From Spirochaetota bacterium (GTDB taxonomy: Bacteria; Spirochaetota; UBA4802; JAFGJZ01), in assembly GCA_027858855.1 (NCBI GenBank), contig JAQIBV010000052.1:1-44046 (forward strand): a stretch of DNA of 44,046 nt, read 5' to 3'. The notes under the pieces are model-generated. The model was not told the origin of the DNA. It ran no database searches and was given only the letters and a program-made list of their open reading frames with translations. This document shows, piece by piece, positions 23,418 through 32,440 of this stretch. The position numbers were made by a program, and so were the translations under genes. Numbering within the stretch: the stretch's first letter is position 1; each line of letters begins with the position of its first letter.

Positions 23418-24113
23418 CTATTCTCCTGATAAGTCAGTTTCGTACGAAAATTCTTTGATTTCTGACAATTTCGGGAGATCCGACAATTTATTCAAGCCAA
23501 AAACACGTAAAAATTCATCAGTGGTTCCATAAGCAAGGGGGCGTCCGGGTACCTCTTTTCTGCCAACTGGCTTTATTAAATTGCGTTTCATTAAATTAGC
23601 CACCATCATACGTGAAGATACTCCCCGCAACTCCTCTACCTCTGCAAGAATAACCGGCTGTTTATAGGCAATGATAGAGAGAGTTTCGAGCATACCCTTT
23701 GTTAAGGGCTCTTTTCTTTTGAACCCGAGTATCCGACGAATCTGCCTTGCATAGTTAGGATTAGTAACAAATTGATAGCCATTAGATATTTCTACAATTT
23801 TAATCCCGCCATCACGTTCATCATACTCATCTATAAGTGAATCGAGAACAATCTTTACATCAGTTTTATCGATTTTAAAGTTTTTTGTAAAAAAGTTCAG
23901 CGGAAGCGGTTCATTTGAAAGAAAGAGCAGAGCCTCAAAAACTGCATGATAATTGTCTTCTGATCCTTCAGTTTCTGCATGATCATGTTCATCATTTACA
24001 GACACATTTTCTTCCGGAGCGACTACGGATTTATCGGAATTTTCATTCTGATTTTTGCTCTCACCTGAAGCCGTGTTTTCAGCACTATCAATTTGTTTTT
24101 TGTTTTCTTCCAT
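23418..24113 (-). CDS. scpB: Segregation and condensation protein B
   Basis: About 231 aa. An acidic low-complexity N-terminal extension of about 50 residues is followed by the two winged-helix domains of ScpB (YHAVFEALLFLSNEPLPLNF; KGMLETLSIIAYKQPVILAE; GRPLAYGTTDEFLRVFGL). It is a subunit of the SMC-ScpAB condensin. The open frame continues to a GTG at 24122; the ATG at 24113 is preferred, but neither has a strong ribosome site. It runs directly into cmk. Confidence 0.92.
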   Translation of the reverse strand: MEENKKQIDSAENTASGESKNQNENSDKSVVAPEENVSVNDEHDHAETEGSEDNYHAVFEALLFLSNEPLPLNFFTKNFKIDKTDVKIVLDSLIDEYDERDGGIKIVEISNGYQFVTNPNYARQIRRILGFKRKEPLTKGMLETLSIIAYKQPVILAEVEELRGVSSRMMVANLMKRNLIKPVGRKEVPGRPLAYGTTDEFLRVFGLNKLSDLPKLSEIKEFSYETDLSGE

Positions 24114-24383
24114 TATTTTCACTTACTTTCAGACGGATTATTGGAGAAAGACCTGAAATCTGTGCTGCCGACTCCCAGCATACATCTTCAGAAATTCAGC
24201 CTTTTCCTAAAATATCGGTTATGTCTGAGTTCTTTCTTAGACCAAGACCATTATATTTACCATTAATTACAAATTAATTATTTAAAAAGCTGAACAATTC
24301 GGCTCAAATCTGGCAGATAGTAGCACATATAGCAATGGCCAGCAGATTCACACAGCATGTGCAGAATCAGATTCAATTAACAA

Positions 24384-25199
24384 TCAGTCGTGGGTCAGAT
24401 CCATGCTGTCTTCATTCAAGCGATAGGTGCTTGGGTCAAAATTTCTAAAGAGATGAATTGTACCAAATTGTTTATGTTGCATAACCTTAATACTATGCAT
24501 TTTAGCCAACTCAAGGCAGGCAAGAAATGTTGATACAATTTCCGGTATCGAAGGAATCGAGTGAAAAAGCTGTTTAAACGAAATCTGCTCTTTAGTACGT
24601 AAAAAATTTATAATAAAATCAATCCGATCACTTACAAGAATCTCATCAAAGACTATTTCCCGCTCTTCGATCGGGGCTGTAACGCTCATTACATCAACGA
24701 AAGCATTCAAAAGATCAAAAAGAGACATGGTTGTGTACTCATCATCATCCTTTACCTTAGAAAAGTCATTTTCACGGGTAAAACTTTCCGACTGTTTCTC
24801 GTAAAGCCCCTTAATCTCAAGGGCGCTCTTTTGGTGGCGCTTGTATTCCAGTAATTTCGCAACTAATTCACGCGGCAGAGGAGGTATGAAGAACTCATCT
24901 TCAATTTCACCGCTTGGAAGAAGTATTTTTGACTTATAATAGAGCAACTCCGAAGCCATTGCTATAAATTCTGATGCAATAGCCACATTCTGCTCTTCCA
25001 TCTGTTTGAGATACAATATATACTGTTCAGTAATTTTTGAAATAGAAATATCAATTATATCTATTTTTGAACGCTTAATCAAATTCCAAAGAAGATCAAG
25101 TGGGCCATCAAAATTATCGATATGTATTACATACTTCTCCTGAGCAGCTTCTGAACTGTCAGACAGGGCATCATCAATTGATTCAGCATCTTTACTCAT
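24384..25199 (-). CDS. scpA: Segregation and condensation protein A
   Basis: 271 aa. Kleisin subunit of the SMC complex: the N-terminal domain (VIHIDNFDGPLDLLWNLIKR, then EFIAMASELLYYKSKILLP) binds the SMC neck and the C-terminal winged helix binds the SMC head. The frame opens at a TTG at 25217, but GGGAG sits about 5 nt before the ATG at 25199, so that start is chosen. It is followed by a 270-nt gap before scpB with no convincing gene. Confidence 0.93.
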   Translation of the reverse strand: MSKDAESIDDALSDSSEAAQEKYVIHIDNFDGPLDLLWNLIKRSKIDIIDISISKITEQYILYLKQMEEQNVAIASEFIAMASELLYYKSKILLPSGEIEDEFFIPPLPRELVAKLLEYKRHQKSALEIKGLYEKQSESFTRENDFSKVKDDDEYTTMSLFDLLNAFVDVMSVTAPIEEREIVFDEILVSDRIDFIINFLRTKEQISFKQLFHSIPSIPEIVSTFLACLELAKMHSIKVMQHKQFGTIHLFRNFDPSTYRLNEDSMDLTHD

Positions 25200-25215
25200 A
25201 ATTCTCCCAGAATAC

Positions 25216-25248
25216 AAAAAAATTTAACCGGCTTGTCCGGTTAAATTT
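25216..25248 (-). terminator. Intrinsic terminator after cheY
   Basis: On the minus strand, a 12-bp perfect stem AAATTTAACCGG-ACAAG-CCGGTTAAATTT (25220-25231 with 25237-25248) runs into seven T. It separates cheY from scpA, whose ribosome site begins only a few bases beyond. Confidence 0.88.
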
Positions 25249-25300
25249 CTGTTCGGTATAGGATAAAAATCAACAACTTAAAGATCAAGCTGTTTAGCTA

Positions 25301-25663
25301 TTAGCTATTAAGGGCCTTTTCTGCAGCTTTTTGCAATCTTTCTGGTGGGAAAGGCTTTACTACGAAATCTTTAACACCAAGCTTAATTGCCTTGGTTAAA
25401 AGGTTTTCTTGACCAAGAGCTGTTACCATAATAATTTTCGCATTCGGATCTATTTTAAGAATCTCTTCTGCGGCTTCAATTCCATCTTTTTCCCGCATAG
25501 TTATATCCATGGTTACGAGTTCAGGCTTAAACTTTTTATACATATCAATAGCGACATTGCCATTTTCAGCTTCGCCGACTATTTCGTGACCTTTAGGAGT
25601 TAAGGCGTCTTTCACGAGAGTTCGCATGAACTTTGCATCATCTACTACTAGGATCCTAGCCAT
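25301..25663 (-). CDS. cheY: Chemotaxis response regulator CheY
   Basis: 120-aa single receiver domain with acidic pocket Asp8/Asp9, phospho-acceptor Asp53 (LVTMDITM), Thr81 and Lys103 (FVVKPF). When phosphorylated by CheA it acts on the flagellar motor switch. The TMDITMREKDGIEAAEEI pattern is that of the CheY type common in spirochaetes and Gram-positives. The frame opens at a GTG, but GGAG lies 6 nt before the ATG at 25663. It is separated from cheB by about 155 nt and followed by its own terminator. Confidence 0.93.
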   Translation of the reverse strand: MARILVVDDAKFMRTLVKDALTPKGHEIVGEAENGNVAIDMYKKFKPELVTMDITMREKDGIEAAEEILKIDPNAKIIMVTALGQENLLTKAIKLGVKDFVVKPFPPERLQKAAEKALNS

Positions 25664-25818
25664 CTCTTTCTCCACATTTAAATTGTATATAATATTATGG
25701 TGACTTCAAAAAACCAACTATTCCATAATCTGTACTTTTTAACCCTTTTAAGGATGTTTTGGAAAAGTCTCTGTATAAGCGAAGGCCTCATTACATTACT
25801 ACGACAATACAATAACCT

Positions 25819-26913
25819 TTACAAATGTTCAACAATTTTTTTAGATATTTCATCCAGTGGTAGAATATTTTTCACAGCACCCATTTCAATAGCAACACGA
25901 TTCATGCCGAAAACCACCGAGGTTTCCTGGTCCTGAGCAATTGTGTAACTTCCTTTCTGAGCCAGCTCTGTAATACCCAGAGCTCCATCCTTACCCATAC
26001 CGGTCATTATTACCGCAGTGACCTCACTAGAATAAAAACGCGCGATAGAACGGAACAGAACATCTATAGAAGGCCGGTGCCCAGAAACCTTCTCTCCACT
26101 GTTTAAAGCCAGATAATCATCACCATTTCGCTGATAAAGCTCAACGTGAGAATGTCCGGGTGCGATATAGGCCCAGCCATCCCGAAGTTGATCACCATCT
26201 TCAGCTTCTTTAACCGTCAACATGGAGATAGAATCGAGACGCTCGGCAAAGGCCTTTGTAAATCCCGGAGGCATATGCTGAACGACAACTATCGGACAAG
26301 CAAAATTAGCCGGCAAATTTTTAAATAATTTTATTAAAGCAGAAGGCCCTCCGGTAGAAGTGCCAATGGCAACAATCCTTTTTTTTGAGTGAAGATATGC
26401 ATCATCAACTATCTCAGTTAGCCGCTTATCTTCAGTTGTCTCAAAAGGCCGATCATTCGCAGGGCCGGGTAATACAACTCTCTCTTTGGGCGATGCTGCT
26501 GAGTAATTGATCTCAGCATGTGCGAAAGCCTTTACCTTCTGAATAAGCTGTTCCGATATCTCATCGAAACTCATCTGCACCATTGCCTGGGGCTTTGGCA
26601 CAAAATCTGCGGCACCATATTCAAGAGCTTTAAAAGTCGCTTCGGCACCAAACTGTGTTAATGAACTGAGCATTATGACCGGCTTCGCATTCTTATCCAT
26701 TATTTCGCGAAGAGCCTCGAGCCCATCCATAATTGGCATCTCTATATCCATCGTAATAACATCAGGATATAGAACAAAACTTTTAAAGATAGCTGTCTTA
26801 CCGTTATTCGCGGTACCGACTACCTCAATTTCCGGATCTTTTTCCAGAGCATCTGAGATTATTCTGCGTACCAAAGCCGAATCATCGACAACCAGTACAC
26901 GAATTTTATCCAT
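25819..26913 (-). CDS. cheB: Chemotaxis protein-glutamate methylesterase CheB
   Basis: 364 aa. A receiver domain (phospho-acceptor Asp56, VITMDIEMPIMDGLEAL) and linker are followed by the methylesterase. The catalytic triad is Ser186 (IGTSTGGPSAL), His213 (VVQHMPPGF) and Asp309 (MTGMGKDG). It removes methyl groups from receptors for adaptation. Its ATG overlaps the cheA stop by 8 nt (ATGGATAA). The methyltransferase CheR and receptor genes are not in this window. Confidence 0.95.
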   Translation of the reverse strand: MDKIRVLVVDDSALVRRIISDALEKDPEIEVVGTANNGKTAIFKSFVLYPDVITMDIEMPIMDGLEALREIMDKNAKPVIMLSSLTQFGAEATFKALEYGAADFVPKPQAMVQMSFDEISEQLIQKVKAFAHAEINYSAASPKERVVLPGPANDRPFETTEDKRLTEIVDDAYLHSKKRIVAIGTSTGGPSALIKLFKNLPANFACPIVVVQHMPPGFTKAFAERLDSISMLTVKEAEDGDQLRDGWAYIAPGHSHVELYQRNGDDYLALNSGEKVSGHRPSIDVLFRSIARFYSSEVTAVIMTGMGKDGALGITELAQKGSYTIAQDQETSVVFGMNRVAIEMGAVKNILPLDEISKKIVEHL

Positions 26914-29900
26914 TATCCCTCAGATTATCCACTAAAATTCGCAAAGATTTGACATCGGGAAGTATCATAAGATGTCCGACAATTCTGTCGTCTTCATAAT
27001 AAAACTCGGTATCCATAGTCAACGCGTAATCCTTTTCAACATCATACTGTTCATCAGCAATAATCTTGATTGCTTTTTCAAGTTCATCATGCACAAGGCT
27101 TGGAACCTGTGACAGTATTGAAAGACCTGTTCTTTCAGAAAAAGCGTTAATCACAGAAGAACCGGTAATATTAGTAATCTCTTTTAAAGCAGATATTCCG
27201 TCTTCATTCAACTCCATAGTTTTATCTGTTTCGATGGAGTAAAGATCGTCTACAAGAGAAAAGGCAGAAGCTTCCGGCAAATTAAAAATAACCGTTCCCG
27301 AAATATCACCTATAAGTGGCATATAAACTGAGACATATCTGTCTTTTGCGTATTCACCGCTTTCCATTATTTTTTCAGCCGGAACCAGACGAACATCAGG
27401 TATCGCCATATCAACACGTTTGGATATTATTTTAGATAAGGACTCGGCTGCCTGTGTTATTCCCACATTGGCCAGCAGTTTTATTTTTGCCAAATCATTT
27501 TCGTTGAGTGCAAGCTGTCTTTTTATATGTTCATCAGGGTCACCCATAGAAACTGTCGATTTAACATTAGAATTCAATTCAGACTTAAAGCTTTTCAGAG
27601 CCTCTTTTACCTTCTCGTCTGCATCATCAAGTTGATGTCCAGTTACCGGTTGAGTCTCATCTTTATAGATATCTACAGCCTCAAGCGAAGAGGTAATATC
27701 TTCGGCAGTAACAGCACTATCCTCTTCAGTAGATTGATCAATCTCAGAAGTACCTGAAGCTTCTTCATTCGATTCGGCTTTATCTATTTCAGCCGTAGGC
27801 TCAACAGAATCCTGTGAAACTACATCGGAACTGATTTTGTCATCTTCATTAGTAGTTATATCAAATACAGGTTTTTCACTTCCGGGTAATACCCCATCCC
27901 TATTACCAGAATCAAGTGAGACAAGCGGTTCGATCTGTTTATCTGCTTTTGTCTCGGTTGTTTCTTTTAAAAGAGAGGTTGTAATATCAGAGCGGTACGC
28001 CTCTTCATCCGGTAATTTTGAAGCCCTATCATAACGGCCCCCTGTCTCTCCAGACTCATCCTGAACCGGCAGCGAAAACTCACTTTTCTCTGCGACTACA
28101 TCCGAATCACTATCAAGCTCAAGCGCCTTCATGTTGTGATAATCGTCTTCCTGTTTTTTTATTAAAGCAAGCTTCTCCTCAGGAGACATCTTTTCCTGTT
28201 CGTTAATCACTTTATTTATCATGGAGGCAATATCAAGAATCAGGGCAATACTTCCATCACCAAGGATAGAAGCACCGGCAAGCCCCTCAACAGTCCGGAA
28301 ATTTGTTTCCAGTGATTTAATAACGATTTCGAGTTTACCTTCAAGAGCATCGACAATAAGACCAATTTTACGACTACTATAACCCACAACGATAACCGGA
28401 ATATCATCCTCGTTCTGAAAATTCAGAGGTACTCCAACAAACTGGCTCAAACGGACAAGCGAGAGTATCTCACCACGCAGGTTAATAACCTCATGCCCCT
28501 CAATTGTAGTTATATCTTTATGGCTGATATTTATTGTTTCAATGACATCAGTAAGAGGTATAGCATAGGTCTCATCTTTTACAGAAACCATAATCGCAGG
28601 AATAATCGCAAGAGTCAGAGGAAAGGCCATAATAAAGCGTGTTCCCATACCCTGCTCACTCTCAATGGTTATATTTCCACCCATCTCCTGAACAACTTCA
28701 CGGACAACGTTCATTCCGACTCCACGGCCGGATACATCAGTTACCGTTTTAGCGGTCGAAAAGCCGGGATGAAAGATAAAGTTATAGATTTCAGTATGAT
28801 CGAGGTTACCAACCTGGTCGGAGGTAACAAGCCCCTTCTCTACAGCCTTGTTACGGATCACTTCAACATCAAGACCACGCCCATCATCAATAACCTCTAC
28901 GAAGATCTGGTTCCCCCCCTGATGCGCACTAAGTGTAACCGTTGCAACGTCAGACTTCTTAAGGGCTTTTCTCTCTTCAGGCGTCTCTATACCATGATCT
29001 ATACTGTTGCGGATCATGTGCATCAAAGGCTCTCCTATTACATCGATTACCTTTTTATCAAGCTCTGTATCCTCTCCACGTGTTACAAGCTGTACACTCT
29101 TTCCGCACTCTTTTGAAACATCACGGATAAGACGGTGAAAACGGGTGAAAACCTGACCAATAGGCACCATCCGTGTCTTCATTATTCCACTTTGAAGATC
29201 CTTTGCAATACGGGCCATCTGTTCAATGCGGTTCTTGAACTCATTGGTAACATTTTTGCCAAGTTGCATCTTCTTTAAATCTTCATATAATCGAAAGAAG
29301 CCGGAATTAGCAATAACCAGCTCCCCTACGTTGTTAAGAAGATCATCCAGCTTATCGACTGAAACCTTAACCGTACGCAAAATGGGGGCATTTCGACTAA
29401 CACTGGCCGTCCGTCGCTCAGTCGAACCGGCAGACTGCTGAGTACCAGAAGAAAACATTCGCTCATCTTCAGAATCAAATTCAGAATCGTCCTCTTCGGT
29501 ATATTCAACCTTCTCAACAGGTTGTTGAGGTAGAAAAGCTGCGGGGTGTTCTGCAACAGGCTCGTCCTCTTTTGTCTCAGAGAGAACCTGTTTATCTCCA
29601 AACTTTATGACATATTTGTTTTCACGTTTTTCCATACTGATCTTCAGAACATCAATCTGACTGACCAGATCCACATCACATGCACTTCGGACATCTCGCA
29701 GATCCTCATCTGTAAGAATAATCAGCTTCAATACATCGCGAATAGCCTCATCGGTGAGGTTCTCTTCGTCGGGAATGGTCTTTACGACCTGCGCCATATT
29801 TTTTATATTATTCAATATCAGCTGTGCTTTCACCCACTTCATAGGAGCATCAGGCTCAATAAAAATAGTCAACTCATAACAGCTGAGCCCTTCGTCGACA

Positions 29901-30400
29901 CCACGCTTAAGGTGTCGCTTTTCTTGTCCCGAAAAGGTAGTCTTTGGAACAGAAGCGCGGTCACTCTCCGCAGGCTCATCAGTCTGCTTCTCTTTAGCTT
30001 CAGACATAGAACTGCTCTGTCCCTGCATGTCACCTATTTCCGCGATTATTCCACTCAAATCGACAATCGGCTCTTCACCCTGAGACACCTTGCCGATAAC
30101 AAGATTTATATGGTCAAAACATTTAAAAAGCAGATCGACCATTTCGGGTGTGATGTGCATTGTTTTATCACGAACACCCTGCAAAAGGTTTTCCATTTTA
30201 TGTGCGAGCTCACTAAGATCCATAAGACCCACAAAACCCGCTGAGCTTTTAAGGGAGTGAGCAGCTCTGAAAATATTATTAATTGTATCTTCGTCATCAG
30301 GAGCCTGCTCAAGCTCAAGTAAATTCTTGTTAAGCTCCTGCAGCTGATCATCAGCTTCTTCTAAAAATATATCCTGATATTCACCCAAAGAATACGCCAT
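26906..30400 (-). CDS. cheA: Chemotaxis kinase CheA fused to a CheC-like phosphatase domain
   Basis: 1164 aa, far longer than ordinary CheA. Order: Hpt domain with phospho-His48 (FRAAHSLKSSAGF); P2-like segment (about 172-275); dimerisation (about 342-410); ATPase with HMIRNSIDHG, DDGRGLD and GRGVGM (about 440-595); CheW-like domain (about 597-735). A Ser/Asp/Glu-rich linker (about 740-965) follows, then a CheC-type domain (966-1164). In that domain the second phosphatase motif is intact (S1070, E1074, N1077, then 22 residues to P1100). The first keeps N-x22-P but has Leu where Glu should be. So one protein carries a kinase and a likely CheY-P phosphatase. GGAG precedes the ATG; the gene is coupled to cheB and lies 12 nt after cheW. 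Confidence 0.93.
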   Translation of the reverse strand: MAYSLGEYQDIFLEEADDQLQELNKNLLELEQAPDDEDTINNIFRAAHSLKSSAGFVGLMDLSELAHKMENLLQGVRDKTMHITPEMVDLLFKCFDHINLVIGKVSQGEEPIVDLSGIIAEIGDMQGQSSSMSEAKEKQTDEPAESDRASVPKTTFSGQEKRHLKRGVDEGLSCYELTIFIEPDAPMKWVKAQLILNNIKNMAQVVKTIPDEENLTDEAIRDVLKLIILTDEDLRDVRSACDVDLVSQIDVLKISMEKRENKYVIKFGDKQVLSETKEDEPVAEHPAAFLPQQPVEKVEYTEEDDSEFDSEDERMFSSGTQQSAGSTERRTASVSRNAPILRTVKVSVDKLDDLLNNVGELVIANSGFFRLYEDLKKMQLGKNVTNEFKNRIEQMARIAKDLQSGIMKTRMVPIGQVFTRFHRLIRDVSKECGKSVQLVTRGEDTELDKKVIDVIGEPLMHMIRNSIDHGIETPEERKALKKSDVATVTLSAHQGGNQIFVEVIDDGRGLDVEVIRNKAVEKGLVTSDQVGNLDHTEIYNFIFHPGFSTAKTVTDVSGRGVGMNVVREVVQEMGGNITIESEQGMGTRFIMAFPLTLAIIPAIMVSVKDETYAIPLTDVIETINISHKDITTIEGHEVINLRGEILSLVRLSQFVGVPLNFQNEDDIPVIVVGYSSRKIGLIVDALEGKLEIVIKSLETNFRTVEGLAGASILGDGSIALILDIASMINKVINEQEKMSPEEKLALIKKQEDDYHNMKALELDSDSDVVAEKSEFSLPVQDESGETGGRYDRASKLPDEEAYRSDITTSLLKETTETKADKQIEPLVSLDSGNRDGVLPGSEKPVFDITTNEDDKISSDVVSQDSVEPTAEIDKAESNEEASGTSEIDQSTEEDSAVTAEDITSSLEAVDIYKDETQPVTGHQLDDADEKVKEALKSFKSELNSNVKSTVSMGDPDEHIKRQLALNENDLAKIKLLANVGITQAAESLSKIISKRVDMAIPDVRLVPAEKIMESGEYAKDRYVSVYMPLIGDISGTVIFNLPEASAFSLVDDLYSIETDKTMELNEDGISALKEITNITGSSVINAFSERTGLSILSQVPSLVHDELEKAIKIIADEQYDVEKDYALTMDTEFYYEDDRIVGHLMILPDVKSLRILVDNLRDNG

Positions 30401-30412
30401 AATCTTACTCCG

Positions 30413-31000
30413 TTATGATTTTTTCTGATCAGCTGTCAGCACTTGAAGACTCTTCTTCTCTTCGATCTCCTGATCGGTGTAGAGTACATTATGAAGATTC
30501 AGAATTACAACCAGACGGTCTTTAAGACGACCAACACCGGCAATAAACTCTTCAGAGACACCGTCAATGAAAACTGTAGGAGGATCAACGTTGGAATCCT
30601 TAATACGAATAACAGATGATACATTATCAACAAGCAACCCTATCTGTTTGGTCTCTGACTCGATAACGATTATCCGGCTCATCTCTGTCATCTTTGCAGC
30701 CGGAAAACCGAAGCGAACTCGAACGTCAACAACCGGTATAACATTACCGCGCAAATTTATTACTCCTTTGATAAAGAAGGGACAGTTCGGGAGACGTGTT
30801 ATCTGCGGAATACGCAATATTTCATGAACCGACAGGATATCAACACCATAATCAACATCTTCGAGCATGAAGCTGACAAGCTGAACTATCTGCCCTTCAG
30901 ATACCTCTTCACCATCATCGGTTTTAATAGTACCATCGCCGATTTTGTTCATCTGCAGATTCACATCTTCCTGCTTTTTTTCTAATTCGCTAATTTCCAT
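30413..31000 (-). CDS. cheW: Chemotaxis adaptor CheW
   Basis: 195 aa. A charged N-terminal extension (about 1-38) precedes the CheW beta-barrel domain: QLVSFMLEDVDYGVDILSV, NCPFFIKGVINLRGNVIPVV and LLVDNVSSVIRI are typical. It couples receptors to CheA. First gene of the cheW-cheA-cheB run. It follows zapA after a 121-nt gap, which may hold its promoter. Confidence 0.93.
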   Translation of the reverse strand: MEISELEKKQEDVNLQMNKIGDGTIKTDDGEEVSEGQIVQLVSFMLEDVDYGVDILSVHEILRIPQITRLPNCPFFIKGVINLRGNVIPVVDVRVRFGFPAAKMTEMSRIIVIESETKQIGLLVDNVSSVIRIKDSNVDPPTVFIDGVSEEFIAGVGRLKDRLVVILNLHNVLYTDQEIEEKKSLQVLTADQKKS

Positions 31001-31480: not shown

Positions 31481-32440
31481 TTACTTATCATCCTCTTCAA
31501 CAATAATAAAATCGTCATCGTCATCATCATCAAGAATATCGTCATCCGATTCGTCAATTATTATCTCGTCGTCATCGTCGTCATCAAGGATTATTTCATC
31601 ATCATCCTCGTCATCAAGAAGTATGATATCATCCTCATCTTCATCTTCATCCATACTTTTGTCGCCATCTTCATCCTGACTGATAAAATCACCATCATCT
31701 GATTCATCATCATCAGCATAAACATCGACCTCTTCACTATCGTCATCAATAATCACTATATCATCATCGTCATCTGAAGCATCAGAGCTTTCTTCATCGA
31801 CAAAACCCTCATCTTCATCATCAAGCAACAGATCTTCATCACCAAGATCGAGCTCTTCAGAATCATCCTCATCTTCAAGAATCAGATCATCTTCATCATC
31901 CAGAATGGTGTCGTCACTGTCAAAATCATCATCTTCATCCTCAATAACAAGATCATCACCCTCATCCTCAATAATGAGCTCTTCGGATTCATCTTCTATA
32001 GTTACATCGTCGTCATCATCATCCAGCATTACATCATCAACGACCGGTTCTTCAAAATCATCTTCCGTAACAGCTGGTGCAGCTGTTGCGGCTGTAGCAG
32101 CAGCTGCCGGACGTGCCGCGGGACGTGCATCACCAGAAGGAATCGAACCACCCGCCTGAAGCATATCCATCTTGTCAAGGAGAGCAATAATCCGTTGCTC
32201 AAGCTGATCTTCCTTATCACGCAGAGTGGTCAATTCACGAGTGGAAGCATCCAGCTCTTTTTGAATCTGGGAGATCAATTGCTCTTTCTCTTCAAGAGAC
32301 AGCTTAACTTCTTCAGCATCAGCCTTCAGTATATCATTATCACTCTCAAGTTTTGAGTTTTCAGACCGTAAATCACCAATAAGTTGTAGCGCCTTAATTA
32401 CCCTGCTCTCTAACTCCTCAAGCTGTTGCATTGATACCAT
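31481..32440 (-). CDS. Coiled-coil protein with a giant Asp/Glu-rich tail
   Basis: 319 aa in three parts. Residues 1-95 form a regular coiled coil (QLEELESRVIKALQLIGDLR, EEKEQLISQIQKELDAS), ZapB-like in character. Residues 96-122 are an Ala/Pro-rich hinge. Residues 123-319 are overwhelmingly Asp and Glu, broken by aliphatic pairs in short units such as DDDDDDEIIIDE and DDEIILDDD. The encoding DNA is correspondingly GAT/GAA-rich. GGAGG lies about 7 nt before the ATG. Its position directly upstream of zapA suggests a division or nucleoid-associated role, but this is inference. The C-terminus (FIIVEEDDK) is complete. Confidence 0.75.
   Translation of the reverse strand: MVSMQQLEELESRVIKALQLIGDLRSENSKLESDNDILKADAEEVKLSLEEKEQLISQIQKELDASTRELTTLRDKEDQLEQRIIALLDKMDMLQAGGSIPSGDARPAARPAAAATAATAAPAVTEDDFEEPVVDDVMLDDDDDDVTIEDESEELIIEDEGDDLVIEDEDDDFDSDDTILDDEDDLILEDEDDSEELDLGDEDLLLDDEDEGFVDEESSDASDDDDDIVIIDDDSEEVDVYADDDESDDGDFISQDEDGDKSMDEDEDEDDIILLDDEDDDEIILDDDDDDEIIIDESDDDILDDDDDDDFIIVEEDDK

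Follow-up and report, generated by a model that had tools for sequence, protein, structure and literature searches.

A spirochaete CheA fused to a CheC-type domain that retains one phosphatase motif

The che operon and the layout of its CheA

The window, a stretch of 44,046 nucleotides from a member of the Spirochaetota, carries on its reverse strand a che operon in which the chemotaxis kinase gene is extended by a region encoding a CheC-type domain (Table 1). The first-pass annotation, made from the sequence alone, had placed the kinase and this extension in a single ORF, and both its coordinates and its strand proved to be right. The kinase part has the complete five-domain composition of a CheA, with P1 to P5 in the canonical order, the phospho-acceptor histidine in place and every domain above its curated Pfam cut-off, which bears out the identification of the carrier protein as a spirochaete CheA. 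His48 and the SGRGVG segment of P4 are among the residues invariant in an alignment of eight fused CheAs. Leptospirae CheA fusions have been assigned to class F1 (Berry et al., PMC10782961), and the window's CheA, which groups with the fused CheAs of Leptospiraceae-type MAGs in a tree, can be described as F1-like. An assembly chimera was considered as the source of the fusion and was rejected because independent MAGs contain the same fusion and the same operon.

Table 1. Positions in the window of the che operon genes and of the parts of CheA–CheC (res, residues)
Feature	Positions	Strand	Basis or remark
cheA-cheC fusion gene	26906..30400	(-)	Single complete ORF, 1164 aa
P1/Hpt domain, res 8-93	30122..30379	(-)	Pfam Hpt 71 bits; phospho-acceptor His48 in AAHSLKSS
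P2 response-regulator docking domain, res 174-251	29648..29881	(-)	Pfam P2 53 bits
P3 dimerisation domain, res 342-409	29174..29377	(-)	Pfam H-kinase_dim 66 bits
P4 ATPase domain, res 458-596	28613..29029	(-)	Pfam HATPase_c 70 bits
P5 CheW-like domain, res 603-729	28214..28594	(-)	Pfam CheW 102 bits
Linker, res 736-960	27521..28195	(-)	225 residues, 26% D/E, 11% K/R
CheC domain, res 965-1160	26921..27508	(-)	NCBIfam NF041093, PDB profile, AlphaFold model compared with 1xkr
Degenerate site 1 (Leu975 for Glu, N978, P1001)	27398..27478	(-)	Glu missing in 54/55 alignable fused domains
Intact site 2 (S1070, E1074, N1077, P1100)	27101..27193	(-)	Exact motif; E, N, P invariant in 63/63
Asp1105	27086..27088	(-)	Same column as T. 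maritima CheC Asp143; likely counterpart of B. subtilis CheC Asp149
cheW, upstream, same operon	30413..31000	(-)	Pfam CheW 126 bits; synteny
cheB	25819..26913	(-)	Pfam; start overlaps the cheA end by 8 bases
cheY, presumed substrate of kinase and phosphatase	25301..25675	(-)	Pfam Response_reg
scpA, conserved downstream neighbour	24384..25217	(-)	Pfam; synteny
scpB	23418..24122	(-)	Assigned by conserved synteny and adjacency to scpA

The segment joining P5 to the C-terminal domain had been described as a 225-residue acidic linker. Both length and acidity hold for this protein, but acidity is not a conserved property: in relatives from the same order, the linker ranges from 112 to 265 residues and its charge is often near neutral. 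In the deep-branching fused CheA at L084 of genome G110, the linker extends to about 500 residues, and that gene is directly followed by two cheY-like matches.

The gene order cheW-cheA-cheB-cheY-scpA-scpB is kept from the window's order to Leptospiraceae-type MAGs, and in these syntenic loci CheY is 80-98% identical to that of the window. Against the Leptospiraceae-type MAGs specifically, identity to the window is 80-83% for CheY, about 50% for the CheA core, about 40% for CheB and about 35% for ScpA. The position of the chromosome segregation genes scpA and scpB directly downstream of cheY (23418-25675(-)) is found in both the window's class and the Leptospiraceae-type MAGs. On the other side of the operon, 31481-32440(-) encodes a ZapB-like coiled-coil protein with a very long, mostly Asp/Glu tail (roughly residues 125-319); its gene adjoins zapA, and a ZapB-like gene neighbours the che operon in several relatives.

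The C-terminal domain belongs to the CheC family

The first-pass annotation had proposed that the C-terminal domain is of the CheC type and had suggested a domain search, which returned CheC and CheX matches. The NCBIfam model CheC_Thtogales (NF041093) spans residues 965-1160 with 99 bits (E=3.2e-28), well short of its equivalog cut-off of 250, and the corresponding CheX score is 22 bits. In Pfam, CheC matches residues 1070-1103 with 24.9 bits (cut-off 22) and CheX residues 1023-1107 with 26.5 bits, just short of its cut-off of 27, a score that came to 30 in a scan of the frames of the whole genome. Searched against the PDB, a profile built from 31 fused domains matched Thermotoga maritima CheC (E=1.8e-30).

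Residues 925-1164 were modelled with AlphaFold from 28 sequences; the model has a mean pLDDT of 78.9, and its low-confidence part is the end of the linker. The best solved-structure match of the model is CheC (1xkr; Foldseek 8.6e-19; Z 22.4, rmsd 2.7 over 199 residues), followed by FliY and archaeal CheC (Z 19.9), FliM (about 17) and CheX (about 16.7). Because the structural matches fall in this order, the modelled domain is identified as a full CheC and not as a CheX. It shows the CheC fold at full length (about 200 residues) and at least one exact [DS]x3Ex2Nx22P site, and it departs from CheX, a stand-alone protein of about 155-180 aa that scores above the Pfam CheX cut-off. It also departs from the canonical two-site CheC, as in T. 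maritima, in having Leu975 in place of the site-1 glutamate, and its sequence thus marks it as a one-site CheC variant. With the profile and structural scores above and the same domain in 44/46 genomes of the class, the CheC match lies far beyond chance.

One phosphatase site is invariant and the other is degenerate

The motif [DS]x3Ex2Nx22P occurs exactly once in the protein, at residues 1070-1100, where the annotation had reported an exact second motif made up of S1070, E1074, N1077 and P1100. Its description of the first motif was accurate as well: N-x22-P is kept at residues 978-1001, and leucine stands where the glutamate would be. The survey of the two sites covered 63 different fused domains, sampled across the phylum, and site 1 could be aligned in 55 of these. 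The glutamate, asparagine and proline of site 2 are present in all 63, some of which share just about 25% identity with the window's domain. At site 1, the asparagine is kept in 51 and the proline in 52 of the 55 alignable domains, and the glutamate in one. An alignment of 31 sequences contains ten invariant columns, among them all four site-2 residues, which would be expected by chance about 3 times in a million if columns were independent.

The invariance of site 2 and the loss of the site-1 glutamate look like purifying selection on one catalytic site. Judged by this pattern of residues, site 2 is probably under strong selection and site 1 retired lineage-wide. A local decay of site 1 was rejected because the glutamate is lost in nearly all fused CheCs. 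Site 1 is not alignable in three deep-branching CheA–CheC proteins, that of G110 (L084:2386-6438) and those of the Turneriella loci L082 and L083.

Distribution and history of the fusion

The window's class comprises 46 genomes of one order, and the domain is found in 44 of them, including 30/30 of the high-quality genomes. The two genomes without it (G189, 85% complete; G207, 72% complete) have best CheA matches that are just 41% and 31% identical. These two seem to lack the orthologous CheA altogether, and they are not counted as counter-examples because they are incomplete and without a close CheA orthologue. Across the phylum (393 genomes), several other families have the domain in frames about 1000 residues long, and the examples fetched from that scan are CheA fusions. 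Relatives with the fusion include the Spirochaetes MAGs UBA5368, UBA2205, RBG_13_51_14 and RBG_16_49_21, the Leptospiraceae-type MAGs and, at a greater distance, Turneriella; the last two groups lie outside the window's class and share only its phylum. A survey of CheA architectures in spirochaetes, proposed in the annotation, finds the fusion in all high-quality genomes of the class, in Leptospiraceae-type MAGs and in more distant spirochaetes. The fusion was not found in the fetched top CheA matches of the putative Treponema, Borrelia and Brachyspira families. The single pattern used for the collection scan (LxE[LIV]TNI[VTL]GS) favours close relatives, so that a restriction to spirochaetes may not hold for distant fusions.

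In the CheA tree, the window's order and families f11 and f34, the latter holding the Leptospiraceae-type MAGs, form one fused clade (100/97). The fusion is best regarded as an old lineage trait. Mapped on the same tree, the history of fused and unfused CheAs needs three changes and includes long branches, and it may reflect either one origin with losses in the unfused lineages or more than one origin.

A putative phosphatase, probably held at the receptor array

With the architecture, fold, motif invariance and conserved operon of CheA–CheC established, we infer its catalysis, substrate and localisation: the protein is probably a functional F1-like CheA with a one-site CheY-P phosphatase of its own at the receptor array (a probability of about two in three). 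P1 to P5 would autophosphorylate His48 under the control of receptors and CheW, and the phosphate would pass from CheA to the CheY that P2 has docked. Once released at the array, CheY-P would then be dephosphorylated by the tethered CheC domain, for which a linker of freely varying length may provide the reach to CheY-P near the array. Site 2 would be the sole catalytic site, with E1074 contacting CheY and N1077 positioning the water for attack, following the mechanism known for CheC/CheX. The predicted outcome is signal removal localised to the array, alongside separate soluble CheX phosphatases. Pinning to the array can fairly be inferred because CheC is fused to a CheA that contains P5, and E. 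coli CheA/CheZ and R. sphaeroides CheA3 offer functional precedents by analogy. In E. coli, kinase and phosphatase are both found at the receptor cluster, and the location of the phosphatase shapes chemotactic signalling (PMC2673030). In R. sphaeroides, CheA3 is a bifunctional kinase/phosphatase whose phosphatase activity is described as specific for CheY6 (PMC2924250).

Three stand-alone CheX proteins, each with an intact ExxN motif, are encoded in the genome, together with two further CheAs that lack CheC and lie near their own CheB/CheY-like genes. The fusion was therefore rejected as the sole phosphatase, and the fixed kinase:phosphatase ratio that the first-pass annotation had derived from it becomes doubtful. 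These CheX proteins could account for bulk dephosphorylation, and the motif invariance could serve CheY-P binding without much turnover; both points count against a fused phosphatase. Tentatively, and close to evenly balanced in our judgement, a one-site CheC may have been fused in cis to CheA before the split between the window's class and Leptospirae and strongly selected as the array-resident half of a two-compartment system of CheY-P removal, with soluble CheX as the other half.

The main rival to a tethered phosphatase is that the fused CheC acts mostly as a CheY-P sensor that docks CheD and couples adaptation of the receptors at the array to the level of CheY-P, with hydrolysis in second place. 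In B. subtilis, CheC has just 6% of the phosphatase activity of FliY and its binding of CheD outweighs catalysis, Asp149 is a residue of the CheD interface, and an M-F pair in CheD is conserved where CheC is present (PMC3513319). The genome holds several CheD matches, one of them (L092) with the M-F pair, and the position of Asp1105, probably equivalent to Asp149 by a numbering offset, is Asp in all displayed sequences of the window's class and in 41/63 fused domains overall. However, in most Leptospiraceae-type fusions Gly takes the place of this Asp, whereas the catalytic pair is never lost; lineage-wide invariance is limited to catalytic residues, the window's genus deviates from the order's conserved helix after the Asp, and the window's fusion operon showed no cheD. 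Docking of CheD is unlikely to be the chief role. Some of the CheD matches in the genome are broken over frames (G000:C14:3766-5361, L148; G000:C20:96393-96682), one set lying beside a second che cluster; possible explanations are frameshifts or decay of cheD, or errors in the assembly.

Considerably less probable is that the domain acts on a receiver other than the operon's CheY, either CheB-P or a CheY belonging to one of the two other Che systems. The overlap of cheB with the end of cheA, the binding of CheB by archaeal CheC1 (PMC3579733) and the location of the two additional CheAs would fit such a role, but CheY is the most conserved neighbour of the fusion and the CheC/CheX mechanism described so far concerns CheY. 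A catalytically dead module for interaction or targeting, whether a relic or a FliM-like scaffold, is the least probable of these alternatives: it would agree with the almost universal loss of site 1 and with a fold shared by the non-enzymatic middle domain of FliM, but not with a site-2 triad kept in every fused domain despite the low identity of some.

Comparison with known systems

Fusions of CheC/CheX to F1 CheAs were reported in 2023 for class Leptospirae by Berry, Andrianova and Zhulin, who proposed a dual kinase/phosphatase and used the RefSeq genomes of GTDB v95 (PMC10782961). The fusion, whose frequency the first-pass annotation had left uncertain, was thus already on record with the same proposed function. 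The window's protein shares with the Leptospirae fusions the architecture of a CheC/CheX domain joined to an F1-type CheA, its own F1 label being taken as F1-like, and the Leptospiraceae-type MAGs share its operon and form one supported clade with its CheA. The window differs in belonging to another spirochaete class. The main text of Berry et al. contains no site analysis (PMC10782961), whereas here site 1 is seen to be lost and site 2 invariant. New here are a second spirochaete class, the lineage-wide conservation of one site and the evidence against a fixed kinase:phosphatase ratio; their weight is lessened because the architecture had already been reported in 2023 and nearly all close relatives found are uncultured MAGs. 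The findings suggest two phosphatase pools for signal removal in these spirochaetes, and models with a single soluble CheX would then be incomplete.

T. maritima CheC (1xkr, 2f9z) resembles the fused domain in its full-length two-lobed fold (about 199 residues, Z 22.4) and in the exact site 2, but it is a separate protein with two intact sites. CheX (T. maritima 1xko; Borrelia 3hzh with CheY) has the same catalytic ExxN pair and one active site per chain, but it is shorter and stands alone (model Z 16-17 over 151-158 residues). R. sphaeroides CheA3, like the window's protein, combines kinase and phosphatase in one CheA-type protein; to our knowledge, no CheC-type domain forms its phosphatase part. 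E. coli CheZ is a phosphatase at the receptor cluster, as proposed here for the fused domain, but it is a protein separate from CheA, is not known to be related to CheC and is recruited through CheA-short. The fusion would be a natural version of a kinase and a phosphatase brought to one place, which in E. coli are separate proteins (PMC2673030).
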